Of a stretch of 64,000 bases of DNA, positions 3,324-19,589 are shown one piece after another (the first letter of the stretch is position 1; each line of letters opens with the position of its first letter). Below the pieces are notes generated by a model. The model ran no database searches. It saw only the letters and a program-made list of their open reading frames with translations, and was not told the origin of the DNA. Made by a program: the position numbers and the translations under genes. Source of the stretch: Acidipila sp. EB88 (GTDB lineage Bacteria > Acidobacteriota > Terriglobia > Terriglobales > Acidobacteriaceae); contig NZ_QWEV01000002.1 of assembly GCF_003858395.1 (NCBI RefSeq), forward strand, positions 1 to 64,000, written 5' to 3'.

Positions 3324-3326
3324 TGT

Positions 3327-3722: not shown

Positions 3723-3740
3723 TTGCCCTCCTCAACGCTG

Positions 3741-4010: not shown

Positions 4011-4016
4011 TGCACT

Positions 4017-4301
4017 TCAGCCTGCAGCTACGTGGTTGGCTGGCTTCGGCCCACGCCGCGCTCCTGTGGGCATCGTGGCGGGCCTCTTGATCCGCAGCTG
4101 CGAGGTGATCTTTGGGTCGGTCGAGCGGAACTTCTGGAAGTCGGAATCCTTGCCAAAGGTGTATTCAAGTGCCTTGTTAACCACCTCATCTGGAAGGCAT
4201 TTGACGAAGGCTGCATACTGGTCAACCTGGATTGCGGTTGACTCTTCAAGTGAGCAGGTGATGGTGACTTTGCGGACTTGCTTGATGTCGAGCAGGGGCA
4301 T
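4017..4301 (-). CDS. Small conserved protein of the transfer operon, unknown function
   Basis: A 94-residue protein that I do not recognise with certainty. Residues 10-55 (VRKVTITCSLEESTAIQVDQ and following) look like a strand-helix-helix fold with a ribbon-helix-helix flavour. The C-terminus is basic and proline-rich. It has a good ribosome-binding site (GGAGG, 8 bases before ATG) and follows the VirB11 gene by 23 bases, so it is the last gene of the secretion operon. A DNA-binding role at the adjacent candidate oriT is a guess. Confidence 0.6.
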   Translation of the reverse strand: MPLLDIKQVRKVTITCSLEESTAIQVDQYAAFVKCLPDEVVNKALEYTFGKDSDFQKFRSTDPKITSQLRIKRPATMPTGARRGPKPANHVAAG

Positions 4302-4324
4302 TCTGTGTTCCTCCGGGCTTCTGG

Positions 4325-5338
4325 TTATGCTGCGTGGGTGGGGTTCGTGGTCGCTTCGGTGGCGTCGTCAGCGCGGAAAAGGTCTTCTGTCTCGAAGCTC
4401 TGGGTGGCAAAGTCGTAGCCGTTGACGGCGATAAGCTCTCGTACCCGTCGCCTGCCACTCGGTAGGCGTTCGCAGTACAGAACGAAGTCAATTGCATCGG
4501 CTGTTTCCGAGCGGATAAAGCTGTGATTGATATTCGGGCGTGCGCTTAGGGCAAGGTTCGACAATCTGCTCAATGCATCCCACGCTGATTTCGCGTGCAG
4601 AGTGGTGAGCGTTCCGCCGTGTCCTGTGTTCATTGCCTGCAACAAATCGTTGGCGCACTCGTCGCGTATTTCGCCGAAGATAATGCGGTCGGGCCGGTGT
4701 CGCAGTGCAGCCGCCAACAACGCACTCGGCAGGATCGCAACCTGGCCGGGAATTGCGTCAACGGCTTCCCAGCGGAGGGCATTCGGCTGAAGCACTCTAA
4801 GCTCTGCAACCTGCTCAATCACGATCAGCCGGTCAGTCACAGGAACGTGGTCGAGAATGGCTTTCATCAGCGTTGTTTTGCCTGAGCCTGTACCGCCAGC
4901 GATGATGCCGTTCTTCTTCTGCATAAGGAACTGGACAACTCTGTCCCGCGCCTCCCTAGGGAGGCTTCCCATTTCTATGAGTTGGTCGGTCGTAAACCAC
5001 TGGTTGAATTTGCGGATAGTGAGTGATGGACCGCCGATTGCGGAAGGTGCTCCAACCACCGCCACACGTGAGCCATCCGGCATCCGGGTATTGAGTATGG
5101 GGTTCTGATTCGTGAGATCTTGCCCCATCAGTCTCGCTACGCGCCTGATGCCTGCCTCAAGTCGCTCAATATCGAACGCATCCGTTACCGGAATGTGCTC
5201 GATCACACCGCCCCGGTCGGCATAGACACCAGTCGTTCCGTTCACCATCAAATCGCTGATAGTCGGGTCAAGAATTAACGCCTGAAGGTCGTCCGAAAAG
5301 AACGGTAGAACCTTCTCCCATCCGCTTTCAACGCTCAC
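4325..5338 (-). CDS. virB11: VirB11/TrbB-like secretion ATPase
   Basis: A 337-residue hexameric traffic ATPase of the type IV secretion system, acting on the cytoplasmic face. It shows a Walker A motif GGTGSGKTTLM (about residues 146-156), an Asp-box/Walker B region FGEIRDECANDLLQ, and the His-box segment GGTLTTLHAKS, in the normal order. It starts with GTG, which overlaps the VirB8 stop codon (GTGA), implying translational coupling. Its length is normal for the TrbB branch. Confidence 0.93.
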   Translation of the reverse strand: MSVESGWEKVLPFFSDDLQALILDPTISDLMVNGTTGVYADRGGVIEHIPVTDAFDIERLEAGIRRVARLMGQDLTNQNPILNTRMPDGSRVAVVGAPSAIGGPSLTIRKFNQWFTTDQLIEMGSLPREARDRVVQFLMQKKNGIIAGGTGSGKTTLMKAILDHVPVTDRLIVIEQVAELRVLQPNALRWEAVDAIPGQVAILPSALLAAALRHRPDRIIFGEIRDECANDLLQAMNTGHGGTLTTLHAKSAWDALSRLSNLALSARPNINHSFIRSETADAIDFVLYCERLPSGRRRVRELIAVNGYDFATQSFETEDLFRADDATEATTNPTHAA

Positions 5339-6117
5339 CGGCTCACCTCTGGGCGGAACGTGGAGCCTTGGCCTACAAGCGGATCTACGGAGACGCGGTT
5401 CTCGTGGAATTCGGTGATGGTCAAACCGAGAGGATTGATCGTCTCGTATTGCGGGTTTGTCTTTGCCTGCTCGCTCACCTGGGCGGGATTCAAATAGTAG
5501 GTGAACGAAGCCATCCAGTGCTCCGTTCGCGGCTTGCTGGAGGTCCGCATCGGGTAGATGAGATCGAAGGTCTCAAGGGCCGTTCCTCGGGAGAGGATGG
5601 TGTTCTCAATCTTCTCCTGGGACATCGAGGTAATCGTCACATTGTTGACCTGCACCTCGCTCTGTTCCGTCTGCCCGCTCGTCACCTGGGTGATGAGGTG
5701 GTTCGCATTGTCCTGGCCGATGAGCTGGGCGGCGAGAGCTGAGGAAAGAAAGTAGTAGTTCATGGGGTACTTCTTCGCCATCGTCTCGCGATTGATCGTG
5801 TGTCGGTAGCCAGTCCAATCGGTGAGATAGGTGCGGATTTCACCTTCGCGTGGGCTGTAGTTCAGGTCGGTGTACTGGATCGCCTGTGCCCTGCCCGCCT
5901 CATCAATGCGGATGTAGCGGTTGACGACCGGACGGTGCGAGACAGCGACCAAACCGCCGCACAACAACAGAGAGATACCTGCGAGTGCGCTGATCGCAAT
6001 CTTTGCCATACTGCGCTCGCTATACTGCGCGGAATAAACCTGATTCCCAATCTTGTCGGCCTCGACGTGCTGCCTCGCCGTGAGCGTGCTACCGGGGATT
6101 GCGACGTGTGTGGACAT
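5335..6117 (-). CDS. virB8: VirB8/TrbF-like inner-membrane assembly protein
   Basis: About 260 residues. There is a short cytoplasmic N-terminus, one membrane segment (AISALAGISLLLCGGLVAV), then a periplasmic domain with the VirB8-type pattern (YFLSSALAAQLIGQDN and a late FTYYLNP strand). The start at 6117 is chosen because a strong AGGAAAGGA site lies just upstream. An earlier in-frame ATG at 6177 would add 20 unlikely residues that lie inside the preceding small gene. In the channel VirB8 nucleates assembly and contacts VirB9 and VirB10. Confidence 0.88.
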   Translation of the reverse strand: MSTHVAIPGSTLTARQHVEADKIGNQVYSAQYSERSMAKIAISALAGISLLLCGGLVAVSHRPVVNRYIRIDEAGRAQAIQYTDLNYSPREGEIRTYLTDWTGYRHTINRETMAKKYPMNYYFLSSALAAQLIGQDNANHLITQVTSGQTEQSEVQVNNVTITSMSQEKIENTILSRGTALETFDLIYPMRTSSKPRTEHWMASFTYYLNPAQVSEQAKTNPQYETINPLGLTITEFHENRVSVDPLVGQGSTFRPEVSR

Positions 6118-6256
6118 TCGTATTCCTTTCCTGAATTGCGTGAACGGCTTTGTGTACTCGAACAATGGTGGAAACAAAGACGATGAAGAGCACGGCCAGC
6201 GTCAACATGCGGACTGGCCAGGGGGCGCGTCGGTAGAGCACGATGAGAAACAGCAT
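6089..6256 (-). CDS. Small single-pass membrane protein in the secretion operon
   Basis: A 55-residue reading frame. A basic stretch YRRAPWPVR is followed by a hydrophobic segment MLTLAVLFIVFVSTIVRV. A good ribosome-binding site (AGGAG, 6 bases before ATG) precedes the start, and the 3' end overlaps the VirB8 start by 29 bases, as coupled genes do. It fills the gap between VirB6 and VirB8, where secretion operons often carry a tiny VirB7-like or entry-exclusion gene, but it has no lipobox. Function unknown. Confidence 0.55.
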   Translation of the reverse strand: MLFLIVLYRRAPWPVRMLTLAVLFIVFVSTIVRVHKAVHAIQERNTNVHTRRNPR

Positions 6257-6264
6257 GGCGACTC

Positions 6265-7146
6265 CTAAAGACCTAATGCTGCGGCTGTGGCCGCCCTATT
6301 AGCCATCTCCCCAGCCCTCCCAGCCAGTCCAGCTCCACCGCCGAAAATCATCTGCGTGACGCTTGGGATAAGGAACATATTGAGGATGAAAGCAACGAAG
6401 ATCGTAGTGAACGGAATGAGATTCGCGAGCCACATGGCAACGCTGTAATCACCGTGGAAGGTCTGCGTCATAAAGCCCATGAGGAATTGAGACCAGACGT
6501 AGATAAAGGCAGCTGCAACGGCGCGAATCATCGCGAGGGACAAAAGCACCTCAACGAAGTGCAGGAACTTACCACGGAATGTCTCAGTCAAGTACAGGGG
6601 AACCATCAGTGGGCCGAACAAAGCGGCCACGGCATAGAAGATGAATCCACTGCAATTGATGAGGAAGATGATGCCCGAAGCGAGCCCGAGCAGACCTTCG
6701 ACGTAGTAGTAGCAAATGGTCTCCATCGGGGCGAGGATTGTGGGCATGGGCGTGTTGTGGCCCGCATCCGCCAGCAGTGCCGTCAACTGGTTCAACTGTG
6801 CTTGGTCAAGGATCTGTGAAATAGCAGCGGCAATGTAGGAGAACATGCGATTGAAGCCGAAGCTCGCACCTGGGAGATTGTTGACCCAGTAGTGTTCCAC
6901 CACGAGGCAGAAAAGGAATCTGAATAGGAAGGTGCGCAGCTCATCCAAACTGACGGTGCGATGCCCTCCGAGATGCACCGACCATGACGACATCCGTACA
7001 GCGATGCCAATAAGGATCATGGTCGCAATGAAGGTGAGTAGGATCATCCCGAAGTTCGACAGGGCTCCACCGTTCTGCGTCGTGAGGTTCGTCAAATCCT
7101 GGGTGAACTGGGAGAGCCAATCGACCGCTCCGGGTGTGGGGTTCAT
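6265..7146 (-). CDS. virB6: VirB6/TrbL-like polytopic channel protein
   Basis: A 293-residue inner-membrane protein with about five to six hydrophobic segments, for example GMILLTFIATMILIGIAV near the N-terminus and LIPFTTIFVAFILNMFLI near the C-terminus. A loop between the first two segments and a Gly/Ala-rich tail (FGGGAGLAGRAGEMANRAA) are typical of VirB6/TrbL. It lies between the VirB5 and VirB8 genes. In type IV secretion VirB6 forms part of the inner-membrane path for the substrate. Confidence 0.85.
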   Translation of the reverse strand: MNPTPGAVDWLSQFTQDLTNLTTQNGGALSNFGMILLTFIATMILIGIAVRMSSWSVHLGGHRTVSLDELRTFLFRFLFCLVVEHYWVNNLPGASFGFNRMFSYIAAAISQILDQAQLNQLTALLADAGHNTPMPTILAPMETICYYYVEGLLGLASGIIFLINCSGFIFYAVAALFGPLMVPLYLTETFRGKFLHFVEVLLSLAMIRAVAAAFIYVWSQFLMGFMTQTFHGDYSVAMWLANLIPFTTIFVAFILNMFLIPSVTQMIFGGGAGLAGRAGEMANRAATAAALGL

Positions 7147-7242
7147 AGGGTCACTCTCACGCTTGAAATGTGGAACTTGTTGTTTCGGGTTGAAAGGCTA
7201 GGCGCTGAGAGGTCCAGCGCCAGCCCCAGTACCGCATCTGGC

Positions 7243-8145
7243 TCAGTAATAGGTGGTCCAGGTGGTCGATCCATTCCCCAGATACGTGGGATTGTTCGCC
7301 TGCTGGGTGTACTTGAAGTCCGCGTCGTTGATCGTCATCGAAGCGACGTTGCGCTTCTCCATGTTGGCGACCGCTGCCTGTGCCGCCATGCACGCGTGGA
7401 TTTGCCCCTGCGCGTGCTCTTCTTCCGCACGTTGGGAGTTGGAGACGTTCAACAAATTGAGCTGTTCGACCTCGCTGTTGGTCGCGTCGCTTGTGTCGTA
7501 GACCGACGTGTTGAGGGCGGTATTAGCTGCTAAATTGGCCGTTCTGCTGGCTTGGTATGCTCCGCTTGCTGCGAGGCATTGGCTTGATGCAGCATCCATT
7601 GCCTCGATGTGGGCGAGGGTAGAAAGCCGCTGGCTTTGTCCAACGATTTCCCCGCTCCAGAAGCTCGAAGATGTACCAGAGATCGCGAGATTCATGATCT
7701 TCCAGACAAGGCTTGAGTTCTGAGATTGGCCGTTCAATTGAGATTGAAGACCAGCCGTTTCCCCGTAGGTATTCTGCACACTGCTGTGCAGTAGGGCGTT
7801 CTCTGCCGTACTCCAAATCTGCTTGGAATTGAAATACTTCAGGTTGTTGACGATGGTGTTGTAGGTGGTGACCGATTGCTGATAGATATTCAGCGCGGTT
7901 GTGGCCATTTTGTAGTCGTTGTCGAGCTGCTGGAGGAGCGTAAGGTTCGTCTGCGAACCTGCTGCAACCTCCTGGGCCTGGATCGCAAGTCCCTTCTCTT
8001 CATTGACGATCTGCTGAATGGCGTGAGCCGATTGGGTTGGATCAAAGGTGATGCCGCCGAACTGCGCGTGAGCTGGGACCGCCATTGCGAACGCGGCGAT
8101 TCCGCTAACGAGAGTGAGACTGCGGGCTGCGGTGAGCTTCTTCAT
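7243..8145 (-). CDS. virB5: VirB5/TrbJ-like pilus-tip protein, exported
   Basis: A 300-residue protein with a clear signal peptide (MKKLTAAR, hydrophobic core, cleavage after AHA at about residue 27). It then has a long, mostly helical Gln/Asn/Ala-rich body, as in TrbJ/VirB5 proteins, with two cysteines late in the chain (QCLAAS, HACMAAQ). It is followed by a 96-base gap before VirB6, the longest in this operon. VirB5 caps the pilus and helps recipient recognition. Confidence 0.8.
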   Translation of the reverse strand: MKKLTAARSLTLVSGIAAFAMAVPAHAQFGGITFDPTQSAHAIQQIVNEEKGLAIQAQEVAAGSQTNLTLLQQLDNDYKMATTALNIYQQSVTTYNTIVNNLKYFNSKQIWSTAENALLHSSVQNTYGETAGLQSQLNGQSQNSSLVWKIMNLAISGTSSSFWSGEIVGQSQRLSTLAHIEAMDAASSQCLAASGAYQASRTANLAANTALNTSVYDTSDATNSEVEQLNLLNVSNSQRAEEEHAQGQIHACMAAQAAVANMEKRNVASMTINDADFKYTQQANNPTYLGNGSTTWTTYY

Positions 8146-8157
8146 GGATGGAAACTC

Positions 8158-9453
8158 CTAAAGCGTCGGGTTGACGCGATGATCTGCGTAGGAGGGGATG
8201 AGGATGTCTTTGCCGATGTAGACCCGCGCTCTCGAACCTTCCTTGAGCGTGATGATCGGCAGCCGATTGAGGAAGTGATTGAGTACCTGTTCGCCCTCCT
8301 GGCTGGTTTGCGAGGAGATGCCGTTGCGGATCTGGCTATCGGTTGTTAGAACGCTCCCGTTGTTGCCGATCTGCGCGAGTCCTCCCAGGCCCCCGATTGC
8401 GGCGGCAGCGGCAAACGCTTGCAGATAGCCATGGTCTACCTTGGTGGCAAGGCCGGTGGTCCCGATTTGATCGAGGCCAGCGTACTTGTCGATGTCGATG
8501 GAGAAGCCATCTGGGCAGACGGCACGGTGAAACACTACCGCGAGCTTGTGCTGCTGCTGATTCCCTACTGCTGTGACGGAGCCGATAAGCCGGGTCCCCT
8601 GAGGCAGGAGCAGGTTTTGCCGGTCGTGCGAGTAGTAGTCCGTGGTGAGCATGAGCAGGACCGGGCCTGCCATGCCGCCGTCTACGTGGTTGGTAACAAC
8701 TCCCTCAAGAACGGTGCCCTCGAAGACGCGGTACAGCTTGCCTCCGTACTCATCGAAGTTGTACGCGGCCATCGCGTTCGTTTCCTTCTTTTCGCTTGGC
8801 CTGGAACCTTCCGGCACAGCCGGCGGCTCGCCGCCGCCGATGATCTGATTTGCTATGACGGTTGGCCCGGTGGAGGTCGGTACCTGGCTCGTCGGGATCT
8901 GGCCTGCCGATGTAGCCTCGTGGGTCTGGAAGTCAACAGCTACGGTGTCGCTGTTGAGGGCATCCACTCGGTGCTTCTCACGGTCTGCCGCCTTCTGTTT
9001 CGCCTGGGCGTGCGCCTCTGACTGGCCAGATGTCTGCCTGGGAGCATTTGCGCTTGTGCCGTAGATCGCGGCGCTCTGGGCCGGGGTCATGGGCGCTGTG
9101 CCGTCCGCTTCAGGCGGTGGGATAGGCTGTCCCATAGCCTGTTCTTGCGCCCGCATGCCCTGTTCCTGCGCGTTCATTGCTGCCATGGCCTGTTGAAGCT
9201 GGGCGTGCTCGGCGTCACTCTTCTGGAGCAATGCCTGCTGCTTCTGGAAGTTGCTTACCTGCTGCGTGTCGGCGGTAGACGGGCGAGCGGGCAGAGTGCT
9301 CTTAACAGCTTCCTGCTTGTGGCCGCTGCCGGTGATTACGTTGTAGGCAGTGGAAACCCCAATCAGGGCGACTGCTCCGGTCAAGGCAAGAACGATGGGC
9401 AAGGTCTTGCCGATAGGCGGCTTTGTGGATGGTGCTACCGGGACGGTTCCCAT
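8158..9453 (-). CDS. virB10: VirB10/TrbI-like channel scaffold
   Basis: A 431-residue protein with one N-terminal membrane helix (LPIVLALTGAVALIGVSTAY), a Gln/Ala-rich coiled linker (about residues 60-180), then a conserved C-terminal beta-barrel domain. The segment LLPQGTRLIGSVTAVGNQ and the Gly/Ala-rich antenna region AFAAAAAIGGLGGLAQIG are diagnostic. Its ATG overlaps the VirB9 stop (TAATG). VirB10 spans both membranes and transmits ATP-driven conformational change. Confidence 0.93.
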   Translation of the reverse strand: MGTVPVAPSTKPPIGKTLPIVLALTGAVALIGVSTAYNVITGSGHKQEAVKSTLPARPSTADTQQVSNFQKQQALLQKSDAEHAQLQQAMAAMNAQEQGMRAQEQAMGQPIPPPEADGTAPMTPAQSAAIYGTSANAPRQTSGQSEAHAQAKQKAADREKHRVDALNSDTVAVDFQTHEATSAGQIPTSQVPTSTGPTVIANQIIGGGEPPAVPEGSRPSEKKETNAMAAYNFDEYGGKLYRVFEGTVLEGVVTNHVDGGMAGPVLLMLTTDYYSHDRQNLLLPQGTRLIGSVTAVGNQQQHKLAVVFHRAVCPDGFSIDIDKYAGLDQIGTTGLATKVDHGYLQAFAAAAAIGGLGGLAQIGNNGSVLTTDSQIRNGISSQTSQEGEQVLNHFLNRLPIITLKEGSRARVYIGKDILIPSYADHRVNPTL

Positions 9454-10289
9454 TAGTTGTTCTCCTGGCGGTGAAACTCAACCTTGGACTTGCCGATGGC
9501 GACGTAACCGTTCTGCAGGAGCTTGGGAACGGTGTAGAGGCCGTTTTCGAACTGGAAGTTGATGAGCGAGCCTTTCTTGTCCTTCAGCTCGTAGACCACC
9601 GGGGGCTCTTCAAACTTGCCCTGGATGTAGGTGAACTTTCCGTCATCCCAGATTTGCCGCACACCCAAAGCCTTCGCCTTCGGCTGGTCCCAGCTGTAAT
9701 CGAAATGCAGGTTGCTGGGGTAGGTGCTCTGATACTTCTCCTGAGCGATTTCGGCCGTCTTTTTGTCGGCTGCTGCTGCGGCCTTCGCTTGGGCGACTTC
9801 CCTTTCGAGCCGGTCTTCCTTCTCCTTCACCTCTGCCGCTGGGAGGAATACCGGAGCATCGGCCATCTTCTTCTGGGCGTCCTGGTCGGTCTGCACCAGG
9901 AACACGGTGGCATCGAAGCCTCCGGCCTGGTCTGCCGACACCTCTTTCAGCTCAAGGGTGTAGTCGTTGCCGTGATCGGAGATGATGTGGACGTTGGTGC
10001 TGCTCTTCGCCGCCGCTGCCTTGGGTTTCACGCTCACGAAGCGGCTGGCGACGTGACCGGCATTGAAAATCCAGTCGTCGGTGTTTCCGCCGAAGATCGT
10101 GGCGACCTTCTCCTCCGCTGGAAGCTCAAGGAGCGTCGATTCATTGAGAAGGGTCCGAATCACCGGGGGCGCGGTCGTGGCGCTCACCTGGACAGTTCTG
10201 GGAGCCTTCTGTTGGGCATGGAGGCTGGATGCACCGTAGACACAGACTGCAAAGAACGTGCTCGCGGTGAAGAGTGGATGCGTTTTCAT
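9453..10289 (-). CDS. virB9: VirB9/TrbG-like outer-membrane core protein
   Basis: A 278-residue protein with a signal peptide (cleavage near SLHAQ, residue 25). The N-terminal beta-sandwich contains the VirB9 signature around FNAGHVASRFVSVKP. A helical Lys/Ala-rich linker (about residues 150-190) leads to a C-terminal domain with HFDYSW, VRQIWDDGKFTYIQ and ENGLYTVPKLLQNGYVAIG. It forms the outer-membrane ring with VirB10 and is normally anchored by VirB7. No lipoprotein VirB7 was found here. Confidence 0.92.
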   Translation of the reverse strand: MKTHPLFTASTFFAVCVYGASSLHAQQKAPRTVQVSATTAPPVIRTLLNESTLLELPAEEKVATIFGGNTDDWIFNAGHVASRFVSVKPKAAAAKSSTNVHIISDHGNDYTLELKEVSADQAGGFDATVFLVQTDQDAQKKMADAPVFLPAAEVKEKEDRLEREVAQAKAAAAADKKTAEIAQEKYQSTYPSNLHFDYSWDQPKAKALGVRQIWDDGKFTYIQGKFEEPPVVYELKDKKGSLINFQFENGLYTVPKLLQNGYVAIGKSKVEFHRQENN

Positions 10290-10332
10290 TGGGGCGGTCT
10301 CCCTGGCTGGTTGGTGGTGTAATTGCGAGTAA

Positions 10333-12684
10333 TTAGGCGTCTTCGCCTGCGACGAAACGGGTGATACCGTCCTCCAGTCCCCATCTCTCGATCAAGCGGG
10401 CTCGACGGGCTCTATCCTTGGGCTTGGTGGAAAAGATCGCGTAGCTGCGGGGGTCTAGGTTCAAGGTCACAACTTTGGTGACTCCATCGCGGCGCATCAA
10501 CAGGCCCTCACGCGGTCCAAGGCTCTCGAAGAGGTTCAGTTGCTGCTCGGTCATCTTGAACAGCTCGCCGTAGAACTCCCGGTTGAACGTGGCATCTGGG
10601 AGCAACAGGAAGGACGAACAGGAGTTCACAATCGAATCCGCGTTCTCTCCAAGGTCGTTGGCTGACTGGCCGATGAGAGTGACGCCACCGAGGTTCTTAC
10701 GAACCTGCTTGATACTGGCAAGTGCGCCCTCCAGCAGTTGTTTGTTCTTCATGTTCGAGAAGATCTCCTCGATCACGACATGCTTGGGAACGCCAAGGTT
10801 CTTGGGGTCATACACCACGTCGTCAATCCGACGTAGCAGCCAAATCATCAGCGGTTCGATCAGGTCCGGGTAGTCCTTCGCCACACCCGCAAAATCCCAG
10901 CACTGGATGCGCGAGAGGCTAAGCGAGTCCTCTACGTTGTCGAAGATGGCGTTATAGACGCCTTTCTCAACCCATTTCGCGAGGTAACGCTTCAGGTGTA
11001 GCGGGAGAAGCAGATTGGAAAGTCTGCGAATCTTCCGGTCGATGAGGTACATACCCTGCACCTCTCTGAACACCGCGTCCTCGTCTTCAGGGCTGAGCAC
11101 GGCTCCACTGTTGGTGAGGAGCATCTTCACGAAGTTGTAGAGGAATTTGACGTTCTTCTCGGTCGGCTCCAGGGCGAACGGGTTGACTCGCGGGCCGTCT
11201 AGCCCGATGCGGTCCACCTTGCCGCCGTATAGCTCCACCATGCTTTCGTAGCTGTTGCCTATGTCGAAAATGAACGTGAACCCGTGGTATTTCCGCTCCA
11301 GCGCAAGCATCTGGTTGGTGTGCACGGACTTGCCCGTACCGGGAGGTCCAATGGTGAGCTGCACCCGGACGCCGGACACGTAGGCGTCATGAAAGAACGG
11401 GGTTCCCTGCCGGGTCTCGAAGACGTTCAGGTATTCGCTGTCTAGGTCCTCCGATTTGGGATGGCCGATGGTTGGGGCGAAGACTGGCGAGAGGCGGGCG
11501 TGATGATCCTCTCCAAGCCAAAGGGAAAAGACGTTGTAGCGCTGATTGAAAGGAAACATCGCATAGAAAGCCGAGAGGTTGCCGATGGTCTCCTCGATCA
11601 CCGTGGCCTGCGCGTCTACGAAGGTCCGGTGAACGAGCGGCGTGTTCTCCCTGAGTTCTTCCGCGCTCGCAGCCGAGAGGAGAAGCGTAACGGTGTACTT
11701 GCCCTGAGCCTTTTTACCCAGCTCCTTGACGACGAGACCTAGATCATCAACGCCTTCGGAAGCTGCCTTTGCACCGGCGCCCTGGTCGAGCTGGGCGAAG
11801 TTCTTCCCGGCCATGACGCGCTGGAAGATCCCGACTTTGAAGAAGTCGATCCACTTCTCCTGGGCGCTGATTTCCTTGCGCACTGTGGAGGACGCCTGCG
11901 GCCTCCATGTGGTGCAAAGCACACTGTCACAGGTCAGATTGGTGATGCTGTTGTAAAGGCAAGGCTGGGACGCGGCGGGCGTGCTCGACGCCGAGAACAT
12001 CTGGACGTGGCGCTTTCCTACGCGCAGATGATCGTTGTGCCAGGAGACCGCGCTTGTGGCAATTTGCTGGTCTACGCCCTGGTCGGAAACAAGCGGAATA
12101 TGACCGGCCCATTCTTCAAGGTTGAACAGCTCCGCGAAGAACTTGAAGGCTTTTTCCTTGCCGACAACCTTCAAACCGATCACGCTGCCCAGATGCGTTT
12201 CGAGGATGGTCGCCGCCTTCTGGAGCTGCGAGATGAGCCGGTCGTTCTCGTCGGCCTGATCCTTCGGTCTGGCCGCGAATGGAGACGCCAACTGGGGCTC
12301 CAGGGTGAGGCACCAATGAAGGTCGATCCGACGGAAGTTTGCAGTCTTCGCAAGAAAGTCCAGCCGATGATCCACAAAGGTTTGGGTGATGGGATCGGCA
12401 TACTTCTTCTGGCGCGGGATCTCGAAACCGGAGGTCACGCGCATGTACTGGTAGAGCGCGAAGTCTTCTGTAAGGCCGCGCACGCCGCCTTCAACGCCTC
12501 GCATCTTGGAGGCTATCTCCGAGTCTGTGAGCCCTTCTTCATCCGCTCCATCGACTTCAAAAAGCAAGCCATAGCCGCGTGTTTTGCTCGCGAACACGGT
12601 AGGGGTGACGAAGCGAACGATGGGCATGATGCTGTTCGCGGCCCCAGCGTCGGTGAACCATGGATTAGCGTTTGCGCGGGTCAT
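10333..12684 (-). CDS. virB4: VirB4/TrbE-like secretion ATPase
   Basis: A 783-residue ATPase that energises pilus assembly and substrate entry. The C-terminal ATPase half has Walker A GPPGTGKS (about residue 446) and a Walker B/Glu region HVVIEEIFSNMKNKQLLEGA. It continues with VRKNLGGVTLIGQSAND, as in CagE/TrbE/VirB4. The start overlaps the VirB3 gene by 20 bases. Length and domain order are normal. Confidence 0.94.
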   Translation of the reverse strand: MTRANANPWFTDAGAANSIMPIVRFVTPTVFASKTRGYGLLFEVDGADEEGLTDSEIASKMRGVEGGVRGLTEDFALYQYMRVTSGFEIPRQKKYADPITQTFVDHRLDFLAKTANFRRIDLHWCLTLEPQLASPFAARPKDQADENDRLISQLQKAATILETHLGSVIGLKVVGKEKAFKFFAELFNLEEWAGHIPLVSDQGVDQQIATSAVSWHNDHLRVGKRHVQMFSASSTPAASQPCLYNSITNLTCDSVLCTTWRPQASSTVRKEISAQEKWIDFFKVGIFQRVMAGKNFAQLDQGAGAKAASEGVDDLGLVVKELGKKAQGKYTVTLLLSAASAEELRENTPLVHRTFVDAQATVIEETIGNLSAFYAMFPFNQRYNVFSLWLGEDHHARLSPVFAPTIGHPKSEDLDSEYLNVFETRQGTPFFHDAYVSGVRVQLTIGPPGTGKSVHTNQMLALERKYHGFTFIFDIGNSYESMVELYGGKVDRIGLDGPRVNPFALEPTEKNVKFLYNFVKMLLTNSGAVLSPEDEDAVFREVQGMYLIDRKIRRLSNLLLPLHLKRYLAKWVEKGVYNAIFDNVEDSLSLSRIQCWDFAGVAKDYPDLIEPLMIWLLRRIDDVVYDPKNLGVPKHVVIEEIFSNMKNKQLLEGALASIKQVRKNLGGVTLIGQSANDLGENADSIVNSCSSFLLLPDATFNREFYGELFKMTEQQLNLFESLGPREGLLMRRDGVTKVVTLNLDPRSYAIFSTKPKDRARRARLIERWGLEDGITRFVAGEDA

Positions 12685-12934
12685 AGTAGCTCTTCTGGGT
12701 CCAGCTCAGGCCCCACAGTTGGAACATCTTTGGGTGTTTGCGCACGATCATCCAGCAGATAGCGGTAATCGCAATGAACATGACAATCGACAGAAGAAAG
12801 AACCGAAGCAGGAGAGCCATCAGCGAGGCAATCACAATGCCCATCCAGATAGGCAAACTCAAACCGAGTTTCTGCCGAGATTTGTTGAGGGCTTGATTGA
12901 TCGCCAGTGGCTCTCCACGCTTGGTCATCTGCAT
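12665..12934 (-). CDS. virB3: VirB3/TrbD-like inner-membrane protein
   Basis: An 89-residue protein with a basic N-terminus (MQMTKRGEPLAINQALNKSR), two tandem membrane helices (about residues 28-48 and 49-65) and a short basic tail. It starts 2 bases after the VirB2 stop and its 3' end overlaps VirB4, which fixes it as VirB3. The same frame is open far upstream, but that part overlaps VirB2 and is not coding. VirB3 partners VirB4 at the inner membrane. Confidence 0.82.
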   Translation of the reverse strand: MQMTKRGEPLAINQALNKSRQKLGLSLPIWMGIVIASLMALLLRFFLLSIVMFIAITAICWMIVRKHPKMFQLWGLSWTQKSYYDPRKR

Positions 12935-12936
12935 GG

Positions 12937-13302
12937 CTAGAGGCTCTGTCCGGTGAGAGAAGAAACCCACTGCGGGGCGAAGCCGATGACGATACCAGCG
13001 AACAGACCGCCACCGATTGCCATAAAGCCACCGGAGATGTTGCGGCCCATGAACTGGAACACGCCGAACACGATTCCAATGACGACGGCGAGTGCGCCAC
13101 CGAGCAAGCAGCTCGTCTCGATGGTCTTCATCGCGGAAGTGACACCCGAGACGTCCACCGTGCCCTGAGCGTGCGCGACGAGTGGGGAGATTGCGAGGGT
13201 AAGCAGAACCGGCCCAAGCGTGCGAGCGGCGTCCTTTGCCCGCTGCTTGGTGAAGGTTCTGGAGGCCATGGCTGTGAGGCGGGAATTCATCGTTGCGGTC
13301 AA
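12937..13302 (-). CDS. virB2: VirB2/TrbC-like major pilin
   Basis: A pilin precursor of about 121 residues. A long signal peptide ends at VAHAQ, followed by two hydrophobic helices (GALAVVIGIVFGVFQFMG and GGFMAIGGGLFAGIVIGF) joined by a short polar loop. I chose the TTG at 13302 because AGGAG lies 6 bases upstream. ATG at 13290 is a possible alternative, and a more distal ATG at 13341 has no such site. As first gene of the operon it matches TrbC/VirB2 gene order. Confidence 0.87.
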   Translation of the reverse strand: MTATMNSRLTAMASRTFTKQRAKDAARTLGPVLLTLAISPLVAHAQGTVDVSGVTSAMKTIETSCLLGGALAVVIGIVFGVFQFMGRNISGGFMAIGGGLFAGIVIGFAPQWVSSLTGQSL

Positions 13303-13533
13303 GGGATACTCCTGAAAGTTGCTCGTTTGGGTATGGGTCAAGACACAGAGCCGCGCTCGCGGCTAGTGCACGTTTTCGGTGCGACTGGATTAGGGAGTTT
13401 GGGTTGTTGCCGAATCCTTGCGGCAATCTGTTCAGAGCCGGAAAGCTTCTCGCTTCAAAGCTACGGAAATGGCTTTCTGTAAAGACTCAAACGCTTAGTG
13501 AAGCCGCCTCCTTTCTGTCGTTCAGCAGAACTA

Positions 13534-13798: not shown

Positions 13799-14092
13799 AT
13801 GCTGCGATACGACTATGAACAATTCCGGATTGCGCTGGGACAACGGATAAAGCAGCTCCGGAAGGAGCGCAAGCTGACGCATCGCGCTCTAGTAAGCGAG
13901 TACGGCTTCCACATGACACAAGTCGCCCGGATCGAGCGAGGAGAAGCGTTCTCTGTCCCAACATTGCTACGTTTGGCAGAAACCTTTCAGGTTCCGGTCG
14001 GTCAACTAATTGAAGGCATTGGCGAAGTGTCTGACGAAGAGGCCAACGCGCAAGCTGAACCGTCTCCAAAGAAGAAGAAATCGCAGTCCTGA
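13799..14092 (+). CDS. XRE-family helix-turn-helix regulator
   Basis: A 97-residue protein with a standard Cro/cI-type domain at residues 8-68. It has LGQRIKQLRKERKLTHRALV, a recognition helix around HMTQVARIERGE, and the trailing PTLLRLAETFQVPVGQLI. The C-terminal tail is charged and lysine-rich. It is divergent from the secretion operon, whose promoter carries a palindrome about 230 bases away, so it may control transfer. It may instead belong to the sigma/anti-sigma pair that follows 122 bases downstream on the same strand. Confidence 0.85.
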   Translation: MLRYDYEQFRIALGQRIKQLRKERKLTHRALVSEYGFHMTQVARIERGEAFSVPTLLRLAETFQVPVGQLIEGIGEVSDEEANAQAEPSPKKKKSQS

Positions 14093-14214
14093 TGCGTTGA
14101 CGACAGCTCAAACGCTGAAAGTTGGGATGTGTATTGTGCATCTACCTACTACACGTGTTGAGCGTCCCGTTTCTGGACACCATCCAATACTGAAATTGTT
14201 GAGAAGAGTGCTGA

Positions 14215-14793
14215 ATGGGCTGGACGCAATTACATCTCGTGGACAGTGAAGGCATGGAAGTATTGCCCTCCATCAAAGCAGGCGTCGAATCAGCGTTCGG
14301 CTGGGTAGTGAGCACGTACCCGAATCTCGATCCCGCTGTCCTCGCAGAGTGGGCCGAGGAGATCGGAAGCGCGATGCAAGAGAACAAGAACACTCACGCG
14401 ACACCGCGCCGTTATGCGTATGCCGCGATGCATGGAAGAGTGCGCGATTACCTGAAGACGCGCGCCTCAAAAGAGACGTCGGAAGGTAGCAGTCTCGAGC
14501 TTGAGAAATGGGCCGGAGTGGACGCTGACGCACAGGCCCGGATTGAGCGCAAAATTTTCTTTCAAGAGCTGGGGACGAAGCTGGAAGAGCGCGACCAGGC
14601 GATTCTTGCTCTCCTGCTTCAGGACGTCACAAGCGCCGCAAGTGTTGGCAAGGTCCTCGGAATCAGCGAGTCAGCTGCCGCTAAAGCCATCCAACGACTC
14701 AAATTACGTATTGCATCTTTTGTAGGTTCCAGCAGAATAAAGAGTGGCGACGCGGGCCATGACTTTCAAAATTTATGCGAGACGAAGGGTTAG
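14215..14793 (+). CDS. ECF-like sigma factor
   Basis: A 192-residue protein resembling a minimal sigma-70 factor. Residues 60-85 (RRYAYAAMHGRVRDYLKTRA) fit a degenerate region 2. Residues 120-160 (LEERDQAILALLLQDVTSAA, then ISESAAAKAIQRLKLRI) fit the region 4 helix-turn-helix. It is followed after 9 bases by an anti-sigma-like membrane protein. The region 2 match is weak, so a sigma-like DNA-binding regulator remains possible. Confidence 0.68.
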   Translation: MGWTQLHLVDSEGMEVLPSIKAGVESAFGWVVSTYPNLDPAVLAEWAEEIGSAMQENKNTHATPRRYAYAAMHGRVRDYLKTRASKETSEGSSLELEKWAGVDADAQARIERKIFFQELGTKLEERDQAILALLLQDVTSAASVGKVLGISESAAAKAIQRLKLRIASFVGSSRIKSGDAGHDFQNLCETKG

Positions 14794-14802
14794 GCAGTCT
14801 AC

Positions 14803-15540
14803 TTGGACCTGATAAGGGATTACTTCCTGGATGCTCACCCAAACCCTGACCGAATCGGGTGTCCGGATGAGAAGACGCTGAACGACCTAGCGGAGGATCG
14901 CTTGCCTCTGGAACATCCTGCACGTCTGCATCTAGCTTCATGCTCCGAGTGCGTGGCGGAATATCTGGGATACCGGGGAGAGTGGAAGCAGGCTCAAGGT
15001 GAGCCTGCCAGCATGGTTAAGGCTGCCAGCCAGCCAGCTCCAACACCCTTGCGACCGCGCCAGAGCCTAACACTTGGCAAGTGGGTTTACGCGCTTGCCG
15101 CCTCAGTGTTGTTGATTGTCGGCGGGACCGCAATCTATGAGCTGAACTCTAAGCCTCCTCATGGCTCTATAGAAGTGGCGTCTAGCAATCCTCGGAACGC
15201 GGCGGTAGACCTGTTTGAAGCGACTACCGCACGCGGAATAGGCAATGAGGACGATGCCGCTCCGCTTCAGCAAGTCACCCTGCCTACTGCTGTGGTTCGT
15301 CTCTCCGTTACGCTTCCGCGTTTCAGCCAGATCGGTGAGTACAGGATCATGGTCTCTACCGATCGTGCGGGTAGCCATGTGGTTGCAACAGGCGTCGGCG
15401 TTGCTCAGGAGACTGTGGGCAAGGTCAGGGTGAACGTTACTCTGGACCTCCGCTCCGCGAAACCTGGGGCGTACTTCTTGGCCACGGTGCGGGGCTCTGA
15501 TAATGGGACGTACTACTATCCTCTGCAAGTTGAACGCTAA
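14803..15540 (+). CDS. Membrane anti-sigma-like protein with HxxxCxxC motif and exported domain
   Basis: A 245-residue protein starting at TTG. The cytoplasmic N-terminus carries the zinc anti-sigma signature HLASCSEC (about residues 45-52). One membrane helix follows (about residues 88-108, WVYALAASVLLIVGGTAIY). The exported C-terminal domain is beta-rich (FSQIGEYRIMVSTD and PGAYFLATVRGSDNGTYYY) and looks like an Ig-like or ligand-sensing fold. Directly after the sigma-like gene, it most likely sequesters that factor at the membrane until a signal releases it. Confidence 0.72.
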   Translation: MDLIRDYFLDAHPNPDRIGCPDEKTLNDLAEDRLPLEHPARLHLASCSECVAEYLGYRGEWKQAQGEPASMVKAASQPAPTPLRPRQSLTLGKWVYALAASVLLIVGGTAIYELNSKPPHGSIEVASSNPRNAAVDLFEATTARGIGNEDDAAPLQQVTLPTAVVRLSVTLPRFSQIGEYRIMVSTDRAGSHVVATGVGVAQETVGKVRVNVTLDLRSAKPGAYFLATVRGSDNGTYYYPLQVER

Positions 15541-15666
15541 GATCGCCGTTCTTGCTTATTAGCAAGGTAACAATTCAGTTTGCCAGATATTTACTTATGA
15601 ACTAACCGCAGCATTCCGAGATAGCCGGGGGGCGTTGCGGGGTGTCCCCGCAGTGGGGGTGCCGGA

Positions 15667-15700
15667 AGAGGTGGGCCGGTCTTTTCGCCGGCGCACCTCT
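15667..15700. terminator. Strong hairpin between convergent genes
   Basis: Outer arms AGAGGTG/CACCTCT and inner arms GCCGG/CCGGC form a 12-bp stem with one mismatch. It sits between the anti-sigma gene and the convergent S41-like gene. A second smaller GC hairpin, GCGGGG/CCCCGC, is at 15637-15651. No T-run follows, so a bidirectional terminator is likely but not proven. Confidence 0.5.
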
Positions 15701-15725
15701 GGAGGCAGGGGGAGACTTCCCCCCT

Positions 15726-16982
15726 TTAGCTTGCACGTGTGTTTGCTGCAGAAACCTGCTTCAGCGCGGAGTCGAGCTGGTTGTCTCGTCCTGCCGTAGC
15801 GTCTGCAAAGGACCACGAAACTTCGACATCGGGCGTGATGCCCTTCCCTTCGATCTGGGTTCCCTTCGCGCTCACGTAAGCCGCTACCGGAATCACGAGG
15901 CGGTAGCCGAACCCGAGCTTGCTGGCTTTTCGAGAAACCAGTCTGCCCGGTGTTCTGGTGCCAACTATGGTGGCTAATCGGTTCTCTTGGGCGAATTGTG
16001 CAACCATCTCGGCTGCTCCGGTCGTATGTTCATTCACAAGAATGACCGTGCTTCCCTGATAAGCCTGAGTTCCCAGACCTTCCGTGTAGAGGTAAACAGA
16101 GGTCTTGCCCATAAACTTCAGAGCGAGACCCGGGATGGCAAGTCTGGAACGTGGAACCTTGCTGAACTTCGGGAAGGTTGACGGATCGATCCGTTTCTCA
16201 GCCATCTCGCGGTTCTTGCTGTAACCGACCGGAAGCCTGTCAGGTGTGAGGTAGCTCATCAACGCGAGCCCTCCAATACCCCCTCCTGGATTGCCTCGAA
16301 GGTCGATGATGAGCTTCTTCGATGCTGCGAAAGATCCGCGGAACAGCCGGTCCAGCTCGTTTGCAAAGTCTATGCCCACCTTCCCCTGGAAAAGGCTGAC
16401 CCGTAGGTATGCCACACCGTTGATGTCGCGACTCGTTACAGCGGTGAGATCGGAATATGGGTTGTCCTTGTACTTTGGATTACCCGTATTGAGAGAAAGC
16501 GTGACGATATGGGAAGGCTGGCCGCGAGACACTGTGACTGGAATCGTGTGCCCCATCTCGAACGGCGGTTCAATCGCTTTGTCGGATGAAGGAAGCATCT
16601 CCTTTCCAGCCGCAGTGAGGAGAACATCTCCGGTCTGCACCCCAGCTTCCACGGCGACACCGCCCGGAAGGACATCCTGGAAGACCCACCGGAGACCACC
16701 TTCGATGGACTGTACCGAAAAGCTTGCGTTGATCGCATTTCGGGGATTGATCTTGGTCCTCTCTGAGAGAAGGCCAAGAGTCCGGGGCGAAAGATCGCTA
16801 AGCATCTCTGTGACTGCCTTCTCGAAGGTATCGGCGTCAGAGGCATCAACGACTGAGGAACGGTGTCGCTGGATAATCCTGTCCCAGGCGCTCTTGTCGA
16901 ACGCTGGATCGAAGTATTTGTCGGACACCAAGGCTTGAATCTTTCCTAGGAGTGTTTCTCGTTGCTCTTTGTTGAGATCCAT
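15726..16982 (-). CDS. S41 (tail-specific protease) family protein with PDZ domain, catalytic residues apparently lost
   Basis: A 418-residue protein without a signal peptide. It has a helical N-terminal cap, a PDZ-like domain (VLPGGVAVEAGVQTGDVLL, about residues 104-122) and the S41 core with LIIDLRGNPGGGIGGL and VILVNEHTTGAAEMV. In active family members the last motif reads xASA(S/A)E with the nucleophilic Ser, and a Lys follows 25 residues later. Here those positions are Gly (TTGAAE) and Arg (TPGRLV). It starts 9 bases after the CHAT gene with its AAGGA site overlapping that stop, so the two are coupled. It may be a substrate-binding pseudoprotease, or may use other residues. Confidence 0.8.
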   Translation of the reverse strand: MDLNKEQRETLLGKIQALVSDKYFDPAFDKSAWDRIIQRHRSSVVDASDADTFEKAVTEMLSDLSPRTLGLLSERTKINPRNAINASFSVQSIEGGLRWVFQDVLPGGVAVEAGVQTGDVLLTAAGKEMLPSSDKAIEPPFEMGHTIPVTVSRGQPSHIVTLSLNTGNPKYKDNPYSDLTAVTSRDINGVAYLRVSLFQGKVGIDFANELDRLFRGSFAASKKLIIDLRGNPGGGIGGLALMSYLTPDRLPVGYSKNREMAEKRIDPSTFPKFSKVPRSRLAIPGLALKFMGKTSVYLYTEGLGTQAYQGSTVILVNEHTTGAAEMVAQFAQENRLATIVGTRTPGRLVSRKASKLGFGYRLVIPVAAYVSAKGTQIEGKGITPDVEVSWSFADATAGRDNQLDSALKQVSAANTRAS

Positions 16983-16991
16983 TTAGTTCCT

Positions 16992-19589
16992 TTACAGAGT
17001 GCCGTTGGGGTCACCAACGATTTGGAAGCTGGCCCAGAAATATGGCGCCAGCCCCTGATTGAGCATTTCGAGCTGAGCCGTACGTAAGGCGTCAACCTTC
17101 CGCTTGTGAGCAGCAAGTTCCATATAGAAGGCTTCCATCACATGCGGCGCGGCGTGGTCGTCCACCTCCCAAAGGGTGGACACTACCGAGTCCGCTCCGG
17201 CTTCGATAAAAGCATTCACAAGGTTTGTCACGCCTGCTTCACCAACGGGACCAACTCCCGTGTTGCAAGCGGATAAAGTGACGAGCCTCGCGTTGAGATG
17301 CAGCCCGCGAATCTCGCGAACTTGGAGCAAACCATCGTCCTCGCCCTCTGCACCATCAGGCGCGAAAACGAGTGATGATCAGTCTGGGTAATCCAGATCG
17401 ACGTAGCCATGTAGAGCGAGATGAACAACCTCTGTGCTCGCGAGATCAAGGTGTTTGAAGTGGGTCTCAGTGGCGTCAGATCCTAGGAGAATAGTGCTTG
17501 GATGAGGGAGGTCCTTCGCGATTGTCTCCACTTCGGCCTGGCTCTCCGGTAAGGGAACCAGTTGACTTCTCTGTGGTCCTGAAATTGCACGGACAATGGG
17601 ATTTCGGTCGTCTGTATGCTGGGTCCAGGCTGCGACACCTACGTATGGAAGTGAATCTAACGATTGCCCCTCCACGCGCTTATTGAGCAGATCGAAGACA
17701 GTTGCCGAAGGCGTTACATCGACGGTGTGTGTAGAAAGCACGTAGGAAGATCCGTCTTTCAAAGCAGCGAAGGGCAGCAGATGCAGGGCTCCATCCGGCA
17801 CGATGATGAGGTCGGTTTTCGCGCTGTACTGCTTCACCGGCTGAAGCAGCTCCCCGAAGAGTTTCCCGGCTAGTGCTGTGTCCTCTTTCTTGGTTGCGAT
17901 CTCCTTCCGGTAGCGATTGGCATCTGCCTCAATCGTGGCTTTGGACGGCAGGCTGTAGGGGGTTACCGAATCGCGTGTGATCGCGAAAGCATATGAAGCG
18001 GGTTCAGCCAGAACGTATTCGATCAGGACAGTGCTGGGGGAGAGCGCCTTTTGTACGGTTGCGAGCCGTACTGGATGAGTAATCGTCTGTTGGGCAAGTG
18101 CGCTCGGGCTGATTTGCAGCTCAGTGTTGTAGATCGCGTTTAGAAGACGGGTTCTTTCCTCTGGGTCCTCGGCCTGGATCAGAGCCACGTTCAGAGCGTT
18201 CAACTTTCGCTCGGCTGGTGTTGTCGCGTGGACTGGCTGAATCTCGTGGTGCTCGATCGCATCGGTTTCAATGCGCCCTCTGACCTTTTCCAGAGTTTGC
18301 AGTGCTTCGTCGTACCGTTTCTGTCCAGCTAGAGAGGCAAAATAGCCGGAATATACGTCGCTCATCTCGGCCAGGAGCTGACGTTGGTTGCCTGCGGTGG
18401 CGGCGTGCTGAAGCATGTTGTCAACGAGCGCCATGCTCTTCCGGTACAGCACGTCAGACTGTCTAGCGTTCCCCATCTTCAATGCAATTTCGGCCTTGAT
18501 TGCGAGGTTTCGCGGAACGATATACAGCTCGTCAGGAATCTCCGTGTTGGCTTGGATTGCGTCGTTGATCGAGGCCAGTGCGCTAGACAGATTGCCTTGG
18601 TGTTCGTATGCCTGGGCGAGCAGTCCCGCTGCATCGGCAACTCCGCGCGGGTTGGTGATGCGGCGAGAGATCTTTATGGCTTCGGAGTAATCTGCTATCG
18701 AAGCGTCCCAGTGTTTAAGGTCGCGATAGATCGAACCTCTAGAGATGTAAACCTGGGTCTTATGGCCGTCGTAGACCGTTCCCTGGAGGTTCGTCAGGGA
18801 CTCATTTGCAAGTCTGAGAGCCGCGTCGTATTGATGCAGACCCTCCAGCGCGTCGATCTTGCCGTAGATGGCGATGGTAGGCGATGCAAGCTCAGGATGT
18901 AGAGCGGCAAGCCTGATCGCCTCGTTCAGAGGCGTCAGAGCTTCTTTGTACCGCCGAACCTGAACCAATCCAACACCGAAAACGCTGGCATATCGCACTG
19001 TGGCCGCAGGGTCGCGCTCTACTTTGGACAAGCCCCATGCTTTCGTGACCTGATCTTTGGCCGTTTCTGTATCCCCAAGAATGAACGCGGCTATTCCTTG
19101 GTCTCCAACGGCGCGGGTCGCCTGAGCTAGATGACGTTGCTTCAAAGCAAGCCGTTCAACCTCCTGCCAGGTCGCCCGCGCCTGAGCTGCGTCATAGTCG
19201 ATCTCGAAGCCTCCAAGAACCGTCAGAAGCCGAAGCCTTGTTTCGGGATCATGGGCAGCTGGAAGCTGCAAGGCTTCAGTCACACGGAGGATGTTGCTCC
19301 GAAGGCTCACTCTTTCGTCGGGCGGTAGCTGGCTGACTGCGGCATAAAGAGCCTTCGACTGCTCGTGCTGAGACTCGAAGAGATGCTCAGCCCTTGCATA
19401 AAGCGGCTGGGCATCCGTCCATCGGCTGTTCCATGCCAAAGCGTCTGCGCGGTCCAGTAAACCTTGGGCTGACTCCGGTGGAGCTGAGCTGTGGTGCGGC
19501 GAAACGGCGTAAAAGTACGCTCCAGCCGCCAGCCCGAATGTCACTCCCAAAGCTACGGCTACTTTCTTGGCCCGACTGCGTTTCGACAT
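16992..19589 (-). pseudogene. TPR-CHAT (caspase-like) protein interrupted by an in-frame TGA
   Basis: An 865-codon frame. It has an N-terminal membrane anchor (VAVALGVTFGLAAGAYFYAV), about 400 residues of tetratricopeptide-like helices, then a CHAT peptidase domain. The catalytic His is in VVHLALHGYVDLDYPD and the catalytic Cys in LVTLSACNTG. Between them a TGA at 17379-17381 replaces what is probably an Arg codon (CGA in relatives); reading continues in the same frame to 16992. The stop removes the Cys half. A second start at 17330 could make only a 112-residue fragment. It heads a two-gene operon with the S41-like protein. CHAT proteases are known from signalling and defence, including the CRISPR Craspase. 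Confidence 0.85.

Follow-up and report, generated by a model that had tools for sequence, protein, structure and literature searches.

A conserved cassette of predicted sigma, anti-sigma, TPR-CHAT and S41 genes in mobile elements of Acidobacteriota, and its possible role in controlling conjugation

What does a predicted sigma factor with a predicted membrane-bound inhibitor do when it is carried, beside a caspase-family protease gene, between the conjugation and replication genes of a mobile element? The question is raised by a 64,000-nucleotide stretch of the genome of Acidipila sp. EB88 (hereafter the window), corresponding to positions 1-64000 of a contig of 82,254 bp, in an assembly of 4.48 Mb that is 88% complete and whose largest contig measures 4.25 Mb. 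A first-pass annotation had described five genes of this window, encoding an XRE regulator, a sigma-like factor, a membrane protein with an HxxxCxxC motif, an S41/PDZ protein and a tetratricopeptide repeat (TPR)-CHAT protein, as a candidate signalling or defence system, and all five were confirmed at their positions. Comparison across genomes revealed that the genes of the predicted sigma factor (SIG), the predicted membrane anti-sigma factor (ANTI), TPR-CHAT and S41 constitute a real, conserved and unnamed cassette of Acidobacteriota mobile elements.

Linkage of the cassette genes and features of their products

The cassette was sampled via its S41 gene in 250 genomes of the class (57 regions fetched), six named loci and the window, which gave, among the matches listed, a set of 63 S41 genes (five partial hits and two outgroup rows were left out; L060 and L062 are the same sequence). 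The named relatives belong to Acidobacteriaceae, Sulfotelmatobacter, Bryobacterales and unclassified Acidobacteria records. CHAT genes were found near 60 of the 63, in 52 cases on the same strand and at a distance of at most 500 bp, ANTI genes near 43 and SIG genes near 38. The first-pass annotation had held that a lack of conserved co-occurrence, or a CHAT/S41 operon always located elsewhere, would speak against its proposal; the search found neither. Being picked via S41, the sample is silent on the frequency of CHAT in the absence of S41; of the 250 genomes, 175 have CHAT genes. All four genes were found together in 35 loci (L056, which has two cassettes, and the duplicate L062 were left out of this count), in five different orders: 18 window-like, eight SIG-ANTI-CHAT-S41, five with SIG-ANTI-S41 convergent with CHAT, three SIG-ANTI-S41-CHAT, and one CHAT-S41-SIG-ANTI. 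Such repeated reshuffling with the linkage kept is the best sign that the genes work together as a unit and were not simply inherited as neighbours.

Six of 20 control loci, which were built around CHAT genes away from these S41 and ANTI matches, contained SIG- or ANTI-profile matches directly upstream of CHAT (L120, L122, L126, L129, L133 and L134), with further weak SIG matches elsewhere in L131 and L135, which suggests that the sigma/anti-sigma/CHAT design is wider than conjugative elements. SIG-ANTI-TPR-CHAT operons of other CHAT subfamilies were observed at L120:4637-9167 and L122:8640-13247 and in L148 and L149; neither T4SS (type IV secretion system) nor S41 genes of the types considered here were found in the fetched stretches of these four loci.

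In the window, SIG (14215..14793, + strand; 192 aa) is a predicted extracytoplasmic function (ECF)-type sigma factor. As a single sequence it scored 35.0 bits against TIGR02937, below the cut-off of 42.9; the family profile aligned to the ECF sigma chains 6dv9 and 9isn over positions 44-190, covering both the sigma2 and sigma4 regions (E 1.4e-9 for 6dv9). Its AlphaFold2 (AF2) model had a mean pLDDT (predicted local distance difference test score) of 82, and the top Foldseek rows were sigma factors, yet with E values above 0.001 and TM-scores near 0.3. ANTI (14803..15540, + strand; TTG start assumed) consists of an HxxxCxxC domain, one transmembrane helix and a C-terminal beta-sandwich. No Pfam match was obtained for the window protein, and no precomputed Pfam domain was present among the 120 relatives listed, while 820 relatives were recovered at E 1e-10 from the protein collection (7999 candidates scored). 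The HxxxCxxC motif was present in 28 of 29 aligned members and the transmembrane helix, judged by hydropathy, in 40 of 42 rows, the other two being fragments; in the AF2 model (mean pLDDT 84) the N-terminal part is helical, a further helix spans 92-116, and 131-244 form a beta-sandwich. ANTI thus has the features of a ZAS-type anti-sigma factor, namely HxxxCxxC beside a transmembrane helix and a gene located next to that of a sigma factor. The window copy is the only full-length ANTI listed for the source genome, a second match being weaker. One other assembly (G082, 9.6 Mb, 9% contamination) contained seven S41-type genes and ten ANTI matches, an expansion unless it reflects contamination.

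The whole TPR-CHAT frame (16992-19589, − strand; 868 aa, CHAT 208.8 bits) is interrupted in the window by one in-frame TGA (17379..17381, − strand). The N-terminal piece (17382..19589) includes a signal-anchor-like segment, TPR repeats matched by Pfam and the first CHAT half with the His motif (CHAT 64.5 bits), and the C-terminal part (16992..17378) carries the Cys motif LSACNT (PF12770, 116.6 bits). The TGA falls between the two motifs of the expected His-Cys dyad, which were recognized by pattern in 55 (His) and 56 (Cys) of 60 rows. The frame is open in relatives, including close ones such as L006, whose S41 is 95% identical to that of the window; no other CHAT match was found in the source assembly. 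A frameshift was ruled out as the cause of the break, a single in-frame TGA being present in the 868-aa frame. The ratio of nonsynonymous to synonymous substitutions (dN/dS) between the window and L006 was 0.075 in the CHAT part after the stop, which suggests that the stop is recent, a sequence error, or read through. By a hydropathy threshold, an N-terminal signal anchor was called in 31 of 46 CHAT proteins (L041, L058 and L063 passed, L006 failed, and the window segment was judged by eye); among the remaining proteins, several had a shorter signal-like stretch by eye and others were missing the N-terminus. Given the positively charged end followed by a hydrophobic segment in its relatives, TPR-CHAT is predicted to be periplasmic, with both TPR and CHAT parts facing that compartment.

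Only 9 nt, as read from the sequence, separate the CHAT stop from the ATG of S41 (15726..16982, − strand), so that translational coupling of the two genes in the window is plausible. The S41/PDZ-like protein has a clear S41 domain (PF03572, 98.6 bits against a cut-off of 24) and no signal peptide. Aligned to 7rpq and 7rqh, a pair told apart at the nucleophile by a Ser/Ala difference, it has Gly in place of the nucleophile Ser and Arg in place of the catalytic Lys, and the earlier label "pseudo-S41" is therefore correct for the window copy. Among the 63 aligned rows, the nucleophile is Ser in 53 and Gly in nine (the window and close relatives among them), and the Lys position of carboxyl-terminal processing proteases is Lys in three. 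An N-terminal hydrophobic segment was seen only in two outgroup proteins (L096 and L097), and S41 is predicted to be cytoplasmic. With a dN/dS of 0.11 between the window and L006, S41 stays conserved without its catalytic residues.

Placement beside conjugation genes and a shared upstream element

A VirB4-like gene was present in 16 of 62 cassette loci and in eight of 18 ANTI loci without S41 (20 were fetched, of which L116 repeats L093 and L117 contains no ANTI), compared with none of the 20 CHAT controls. Integrase-profile matches were seen in 15 of 62 cassette loci, one of the 20 fetched ANTI loci without S41 (L116, the repeat of L093) and no CHAT control. Where any of VirB3, VirB4, VirB9 or VirB10 was in reach of S41 (n=18), CHAT was found in 17 loci, ANTI in 16 and SIG in 15. 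Among the matches listed, VirB4 was located within 12 kb of 18 of 58 ANTI genes, against 0.11 expected at random placement in genomes assumed to average 4.9 Mb. Divergent placement of SIG-ANTI and virB genes was seen in 19 loci, of which two share one sequence and two others, L087 and L110, had a called ANTI but no called SIG; in 13 further loci the pair is divergent from a putative DNA-binding regulator gene. These regulator-linked loci (regulator genes at L047:3520-4563 and L079:11257-12063 and in 11 others; some with integrases) form a second element class; the regulator of L047 matches a D5-like phage regulator family.

A held-out search with ANTI alone as query, in 297 genomes across the phylum at E 1e-15, gave seven loci outside the class. 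In five of them SIG-ANTI is divergent from virB4-9-10, with a VirB3 profile match in two; one of the virB-linked loci also contains TPR-CHAT and S41 (L144) and another S41 (L143). The remaining two are SIG-ANTI-TPR-CHAT. The SIG-ANTI pair is hence placed like a regulator of T4SS operons. The first-pass annotation had seen in the cluster an accessory-cargo position; its location between the conjugation genes (T4SS, coupling protein and relaxase) and the replication side (RepA-like gene and iteron-like repeats) was borne out, but with this placement of SIG-ANTI it is not merely cargo.

A promoter-like element was derived by expectation-maximisation from the stretches upstream of SIG. It consists of TTTT-CC, about 14 bases, then CCTCTTATATA and GGGG, and its core, CCCCTCTATATATAAGAGGGG, is a near inverted repeat with a TATA-like -10. 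In 22 of 38 loci, leave-one-out scans of the whole locus placed the top match no more than 500 bp upstream of SIG (just outside in L056 and L110). These runs are not fully independent, because 26 loci, mostly members of the same 38, supplied the starting matrix; the sites facing virB and regulator genes are likewise not independent of those facing SIG, since both strands of the SIG-virB and SIG-regulator stretches were used in training. The final matrix gave 51 matches of at least 15 bits in 1.01 Mb of cassette loci, 15 of them before SIG, nine before VirB3, nine before the regulator, two before TPR-CHAT, one each before VirB4, VirB9 and an integrase, and one by S41, while 312 kb of controls contained one match at 14 bits or more and none at 16 bits or more. 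Outside the training stretches, sites were found before the T4SS operon in L083 (28.7 bits, 9 kb from SIG), L086 (27.9 bits) and L103 (25.0 bits). In the held-out loci the element was the top match by SIG in L146 (21.2 bits) and the second in L145 and L147 (12.8 and 13.3 bits, respectively); it was not found near SIG in L143, L144 and L149, and the top match of L148 was inside ANTI. The element also precedes several regulator genes of the second element class.

In the plasmid clade, to which the window belongs, the first gene of the sigma operon encodes the XRE-type helix-turn-helix (HTH) regulator (13799..14092, + strand; PF13560, HTH_31, 39.3 bits), found at the same place in L006, L041, L058, L063, L064, L066 and L068. 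Inverted repeats of the TTGTGTA/TACACAA type occur at 13530-13700, before virB2-XRE, and similar ones upstream of CHAT in L058, L063, L064 and L068; it is possible that they are XRE operators joining both operons in this clade.

A proposed proteolytic switch and its alternatives

The reading favoured here, which in our estimate stands evenly poised between right and wrong, is a mobile-element switch in which the membrane-bound ANTI would hold SIG until the TPR-CHAT protein, predicted to be periplasmic, cuts ANTI, and the freed SIG would turn on the adjoining T4SS operon. In such a switch ANTI would bind SIG and sequester it at the membrane, TPR-CHAT would sense a signal, likely from the envelope, and then cut the periplasmic half of ANTI, and host intramembrane and cytoplasmic proteases would complete the release of SIG, which would activate its own operon as well as the transfer operon. 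S41 may be a cytoplasmic accessory that removes or holds the cytoplasmic ANTI fragment; in the clade of the window, where the catalytic residues are lost, it would be a binding protein at most. CHAT would thus be the likely protease for ANTI; the predicted topology and a weak co-variation of the proteins fit this.

Distance-matrix correlations over 31 loci were 0.88 for SIG-ANTI, 0.85 for ANTI-CHAT, 0.77 for SIG-CHAT and 0.73 for S41-CHAT, and rank correlations between proteins dropped to 0.17-0.52 in 23 non-redundant loci. In the latter set, SIG correlated better with the N-terminal, cytoplasmic half of ANTI than with the C-terminal, periplasmic half (0.43 and 0.27, respectively), and TPR and CHAT showed the opposite preference (0.48 and 0.36 with the periplasmic half, 0.36 and 0.17 with the cytoplasmic half); no jackknife changed the sign of the SIG and CHAT contrasts. 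The full partial matrix linked the C-terminal half of ANTI to TPR (0.29). These values weakly fit a chain SIG - ANTI - TPR-CHAT.

Several points weigh against the switch. Observation extends to the genes, to a linkage that recurs in different gene orders, to SIG-ANTI standing divergent from virB in many elements, and to an element found before SIG, virB and some CHAT genes in part of the family; the later steps we infer. The topology calls derive from hydropathy and charge alone. The co-variation is modest, with shared ancestry still in the values and by itself yielding some of it; SIG correlates just as well with TPR (0.50) and with S41 (0.45) as with the N-terminal half of ANTI, and a direct link between the CHAT domain and either ANTI half is missing from the full partial matrix (0.05 and -0.14). 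In the window the CHAT gene is broken by the TGA at 17379-17381, so that the switch would be off in this copy, barring a sequence error or read-through at the stop. ANTI was not seen at 20 of the 63 S41 loci, many of them cut by contig ends but not L009, L065, L076, L078 and L092, and a full ANTI lies within 12 kb of only 18 of the 101 VirB4 loci listed, most such T4SS having none. As to the element, the top leave-one-out match lay elsewhere in 14 of 38 loci, 12 of the 51 strong matches precede no profiled gene, and 3 of 22 TonB-receptor-like open reading frames (ORFs) also have it upstream above the null; with the final matrix no match of at least 11 bits was found in the 64 kb of the window, nor was any strong match seen near SIG in the plasmid-clade loci examined (the window, L041, L058 and L063).

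Among the alternatives, the one that survives best, unlikely yet deserving serious attention, makes CHAT the output: host site-1/site-2 proteases would free SIG, which would turn on both the T4SS and a CHAT-S41 effector directed against the host or competing elements. CHAT proteins act as effectors in other systems, and the element was found upstream of TPR-CHAT, the plasmid clade being left out, above the 99% null in eight of 58 ORFs (e.g. L069, L073 and L089) versus none of 23 CHAT controls, with internal negatives under the same null of 0/57 for S41 and 0/15 for VirB4; the other 50 ORFs, however, lack it at this level, and a positively autoregulated trigger would give the same picture. SIG-ANTI pairs beside T4SS or regulator genes, with CHAT not in the fetched stretch (L101, L104, L106, L109 and L110, some cut by contig ends), suggest that the pair may work without CHAT, whereas the co-variation of the periplasmic half of ANTI with TPR speaks against CHAT as a mere output.

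It is plainly unlikely, next, that the element is the operator of a repressor controlling SIG-ANTI among others, with SIG not reading the T4SS promoter, a possibility compatible with CHAT cutting ANTI. The core CCCCTCTATATATAAGAGGGG is nearly palindromic and may for that reason be such an operator, and the plasmid clade lacks the element but has the XRE gene and TTGTGTA/TACACAA-type repeats before virB2. On the other hand, a TTTTCC-like box at one side makes the element polar, and it co-occurs with SIG-ANTI, and no single repressor family was noticed beside all elements, though no search was aimed at one.

That the cassette is defence or programmed-death cargo, in which SIG-ANTI controls a CHAT effector only and nearness to the T4SS reflects a hot spot, appears quite unlikely. 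CHAT proteins are found in defence systems, PADLOC gave weak matches to TPR and BovA profiles, and DUF1016/YhcG-type nuclease genes lie within the same element; yet PADLOC matched neither ANTI nor S41, and SIG with weak HTH-type hits only. Moreover, SIG-ANTI pairs with no CHAT in reach are also divergent from virB (L101, L104, L110, L145, L146 and L147), and the same element stands ahead of T4SS operons away from SIG (L083, L086 and L103). Support for the defence role raised by the first-pass annotation was not found. Finally, that S41 is the anti-sigma protease and TPR-CHAT merely senses, akin to the earlier suggestion of an S41/PDZ trigger, is very improbable, for although most S41 rows keep the nucleophile Ser and the gene comes after SIG-ANTI, in the same orientation, in L058, L063, L064, L066, L068, L075, L077 and L079, a predicted cytoplasmic protein without signal peptide is in the wrong compartment for a first periplasmic cut, the catalytic Lys is rare, and the window clade has lost the Ser with S41 still conserved.

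Membrane anti-sigma factors of the RseA/RsiW type undergo regulated proteolysis. ANTI resembles them in its single transmembrane helix, cytoplasmic, presumably sigma-binding half and periplasmic half; unlike in that type, the adjoining dedicated protease is TPR-CHAT and not a PDZ serine protease, and the set is borne by mobile elements. Among integrative and conjugative elements (ICEs), ICEBs1 has an ImmR/ImmA switch. The same switch in the ICE TnSmu1, as outlined in parts of PMC10233336, involves an element protease thought to release transcription of the conjugation genes. There a metalloprotease is combined with a cI-like repressor, here a caspase-family protease with an anti-sigma and a sigma factor. 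According to sections of PMC10028731, which also discuss RseA/RsiW-type proteolysis, the TPR-CHAT protein Csx29 of type III-E CRISPR (clustered regularly interspaced short palindromic repeats) systems cuts Csx30, an inhibitor of an ECF sigma factor, and so relieves CASP-sigma. Like this CASP/Craspase system, the cassette has a TPR-CHAT gene beside an ECF sigma factor and its inhibitor, with relief of the inhibitor by the protease predicted. Its TPR-CHAT proteins, unlike Csx29, fall far outside the family model NF041237 (19.3, 31.7 and 15.0 bits for the intact proteins of L006, L058 and L069, respectively, against a cut-off of 300, the match being confined to the CHAT part of the model), its inhibitor is a membrane protein that combines HxxxCxxC with a beta-sandwich, and the cassette shows linkage to S41 and to conjugation genes; iteron-like repeats, but no CRISPR-like array, were seen at 9-24 kb of the window. 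EACC2-linked neighbourhoods combine a caspase-family gene, an ECF sigma factor and a TPR protein, with a transcriptional output proposed (PMC8195603); the sections describing them feature other adaptor domains, do not use the term anti-sigma and make no link to conjugation. Our literature search, which was not exhaustive, found no publication on this module, nor any on what turns conjugation on in the Acidobacteriota, one of the major phyla of soil.

Should the proposed switch prove right, caspase-family proteases would control gene transfer independently of CRISPR, and CASP-sigma would represent a single branch of a broader TPR-CHAT/anti-sigma design. A broader proposal, tentative and on balance somewhat doubtful, is that plasmids and integrative elements of Acidobacteriota carry a CRISPR-independent caspase relay of the cell envelope, in which a periplasmic TPR-CHAT protease cuts the membrane anti-sigma factor and thereby commits them to conjugation, as the first caspase-family control of DNA transfer, and that the sigma/anti-sigma/CHAT sets without T4SS (L120, L122, L148 and L149) represent an ancestral signalling design taken over by mobile elements. 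A test set is at hand in the loci with intact CHAT, those without CHAT in reach, those that have kept or lost the S41 Ser, and the predicted promoter sites.

Setting of the cassette in the window

The transfer region occupies the − strand, XRE, SIG and ANTI are divergent from it on the + strand, TPR-CHAT and S41 are convergent with these on the − strand, and iteron-like repeats and a RepA-like gene follow. The start of the transfer operon (9456..13341, − strand) is composed of a virB2-like ORF (12937-13341, with no Pfam match), VirB3 (PF05101), VirB4 (PF19044/PF03135) and VirB9 (PF03524). The remainder (357..9453, − strand) encodes, by Pfam, VirB10, VirB8, a T2SSE-type (VirB11-like) ATPase, the TrwB coupling protein and the TrwC relaxase, and includes two ORFs with no Pfam match. 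A relaxase (TrwC), a coupling protein (TrwB) and a T4SS (VirB3, VirB4, VirB8, VirB9, VirB10 and the T2SSE-type ATPase), as expected of a conjugative element, are therefore all present in the window. The RepA-like gene (21156-22133) scored 17.5 bits in Pfam, under the cut-off of 27; ahead of it, at 20200-20518, lies an iteron-like array of six repeat copies with the core TGACCGGGAAGTGCTGGC, spaced at 35-37 bp with one gap of 71, which supports a plasmid origin. Taken with the transfer genes, the divergent XRE-SIG-ANTI genes and the CHAT/S41 pair, these replication features make the element look like a conjugative plasmid.

A short array of 8-bp units (CAGCCAGA) at 23838-23929 separates the rep region from the next genes. 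Two integrase-like ORFs were recognized by integrase-profile match (25047-26144 and 27887-28954, + strand), with a DUF1016/YhcG nuclease gene coming after each of them (26271-27377 and 29021-29752, respectively). Elsewhere, the source genome holds two more VirB4-like genes, 62% identical (G000:C1:17325-19676 and G000:C5:634344-636671).

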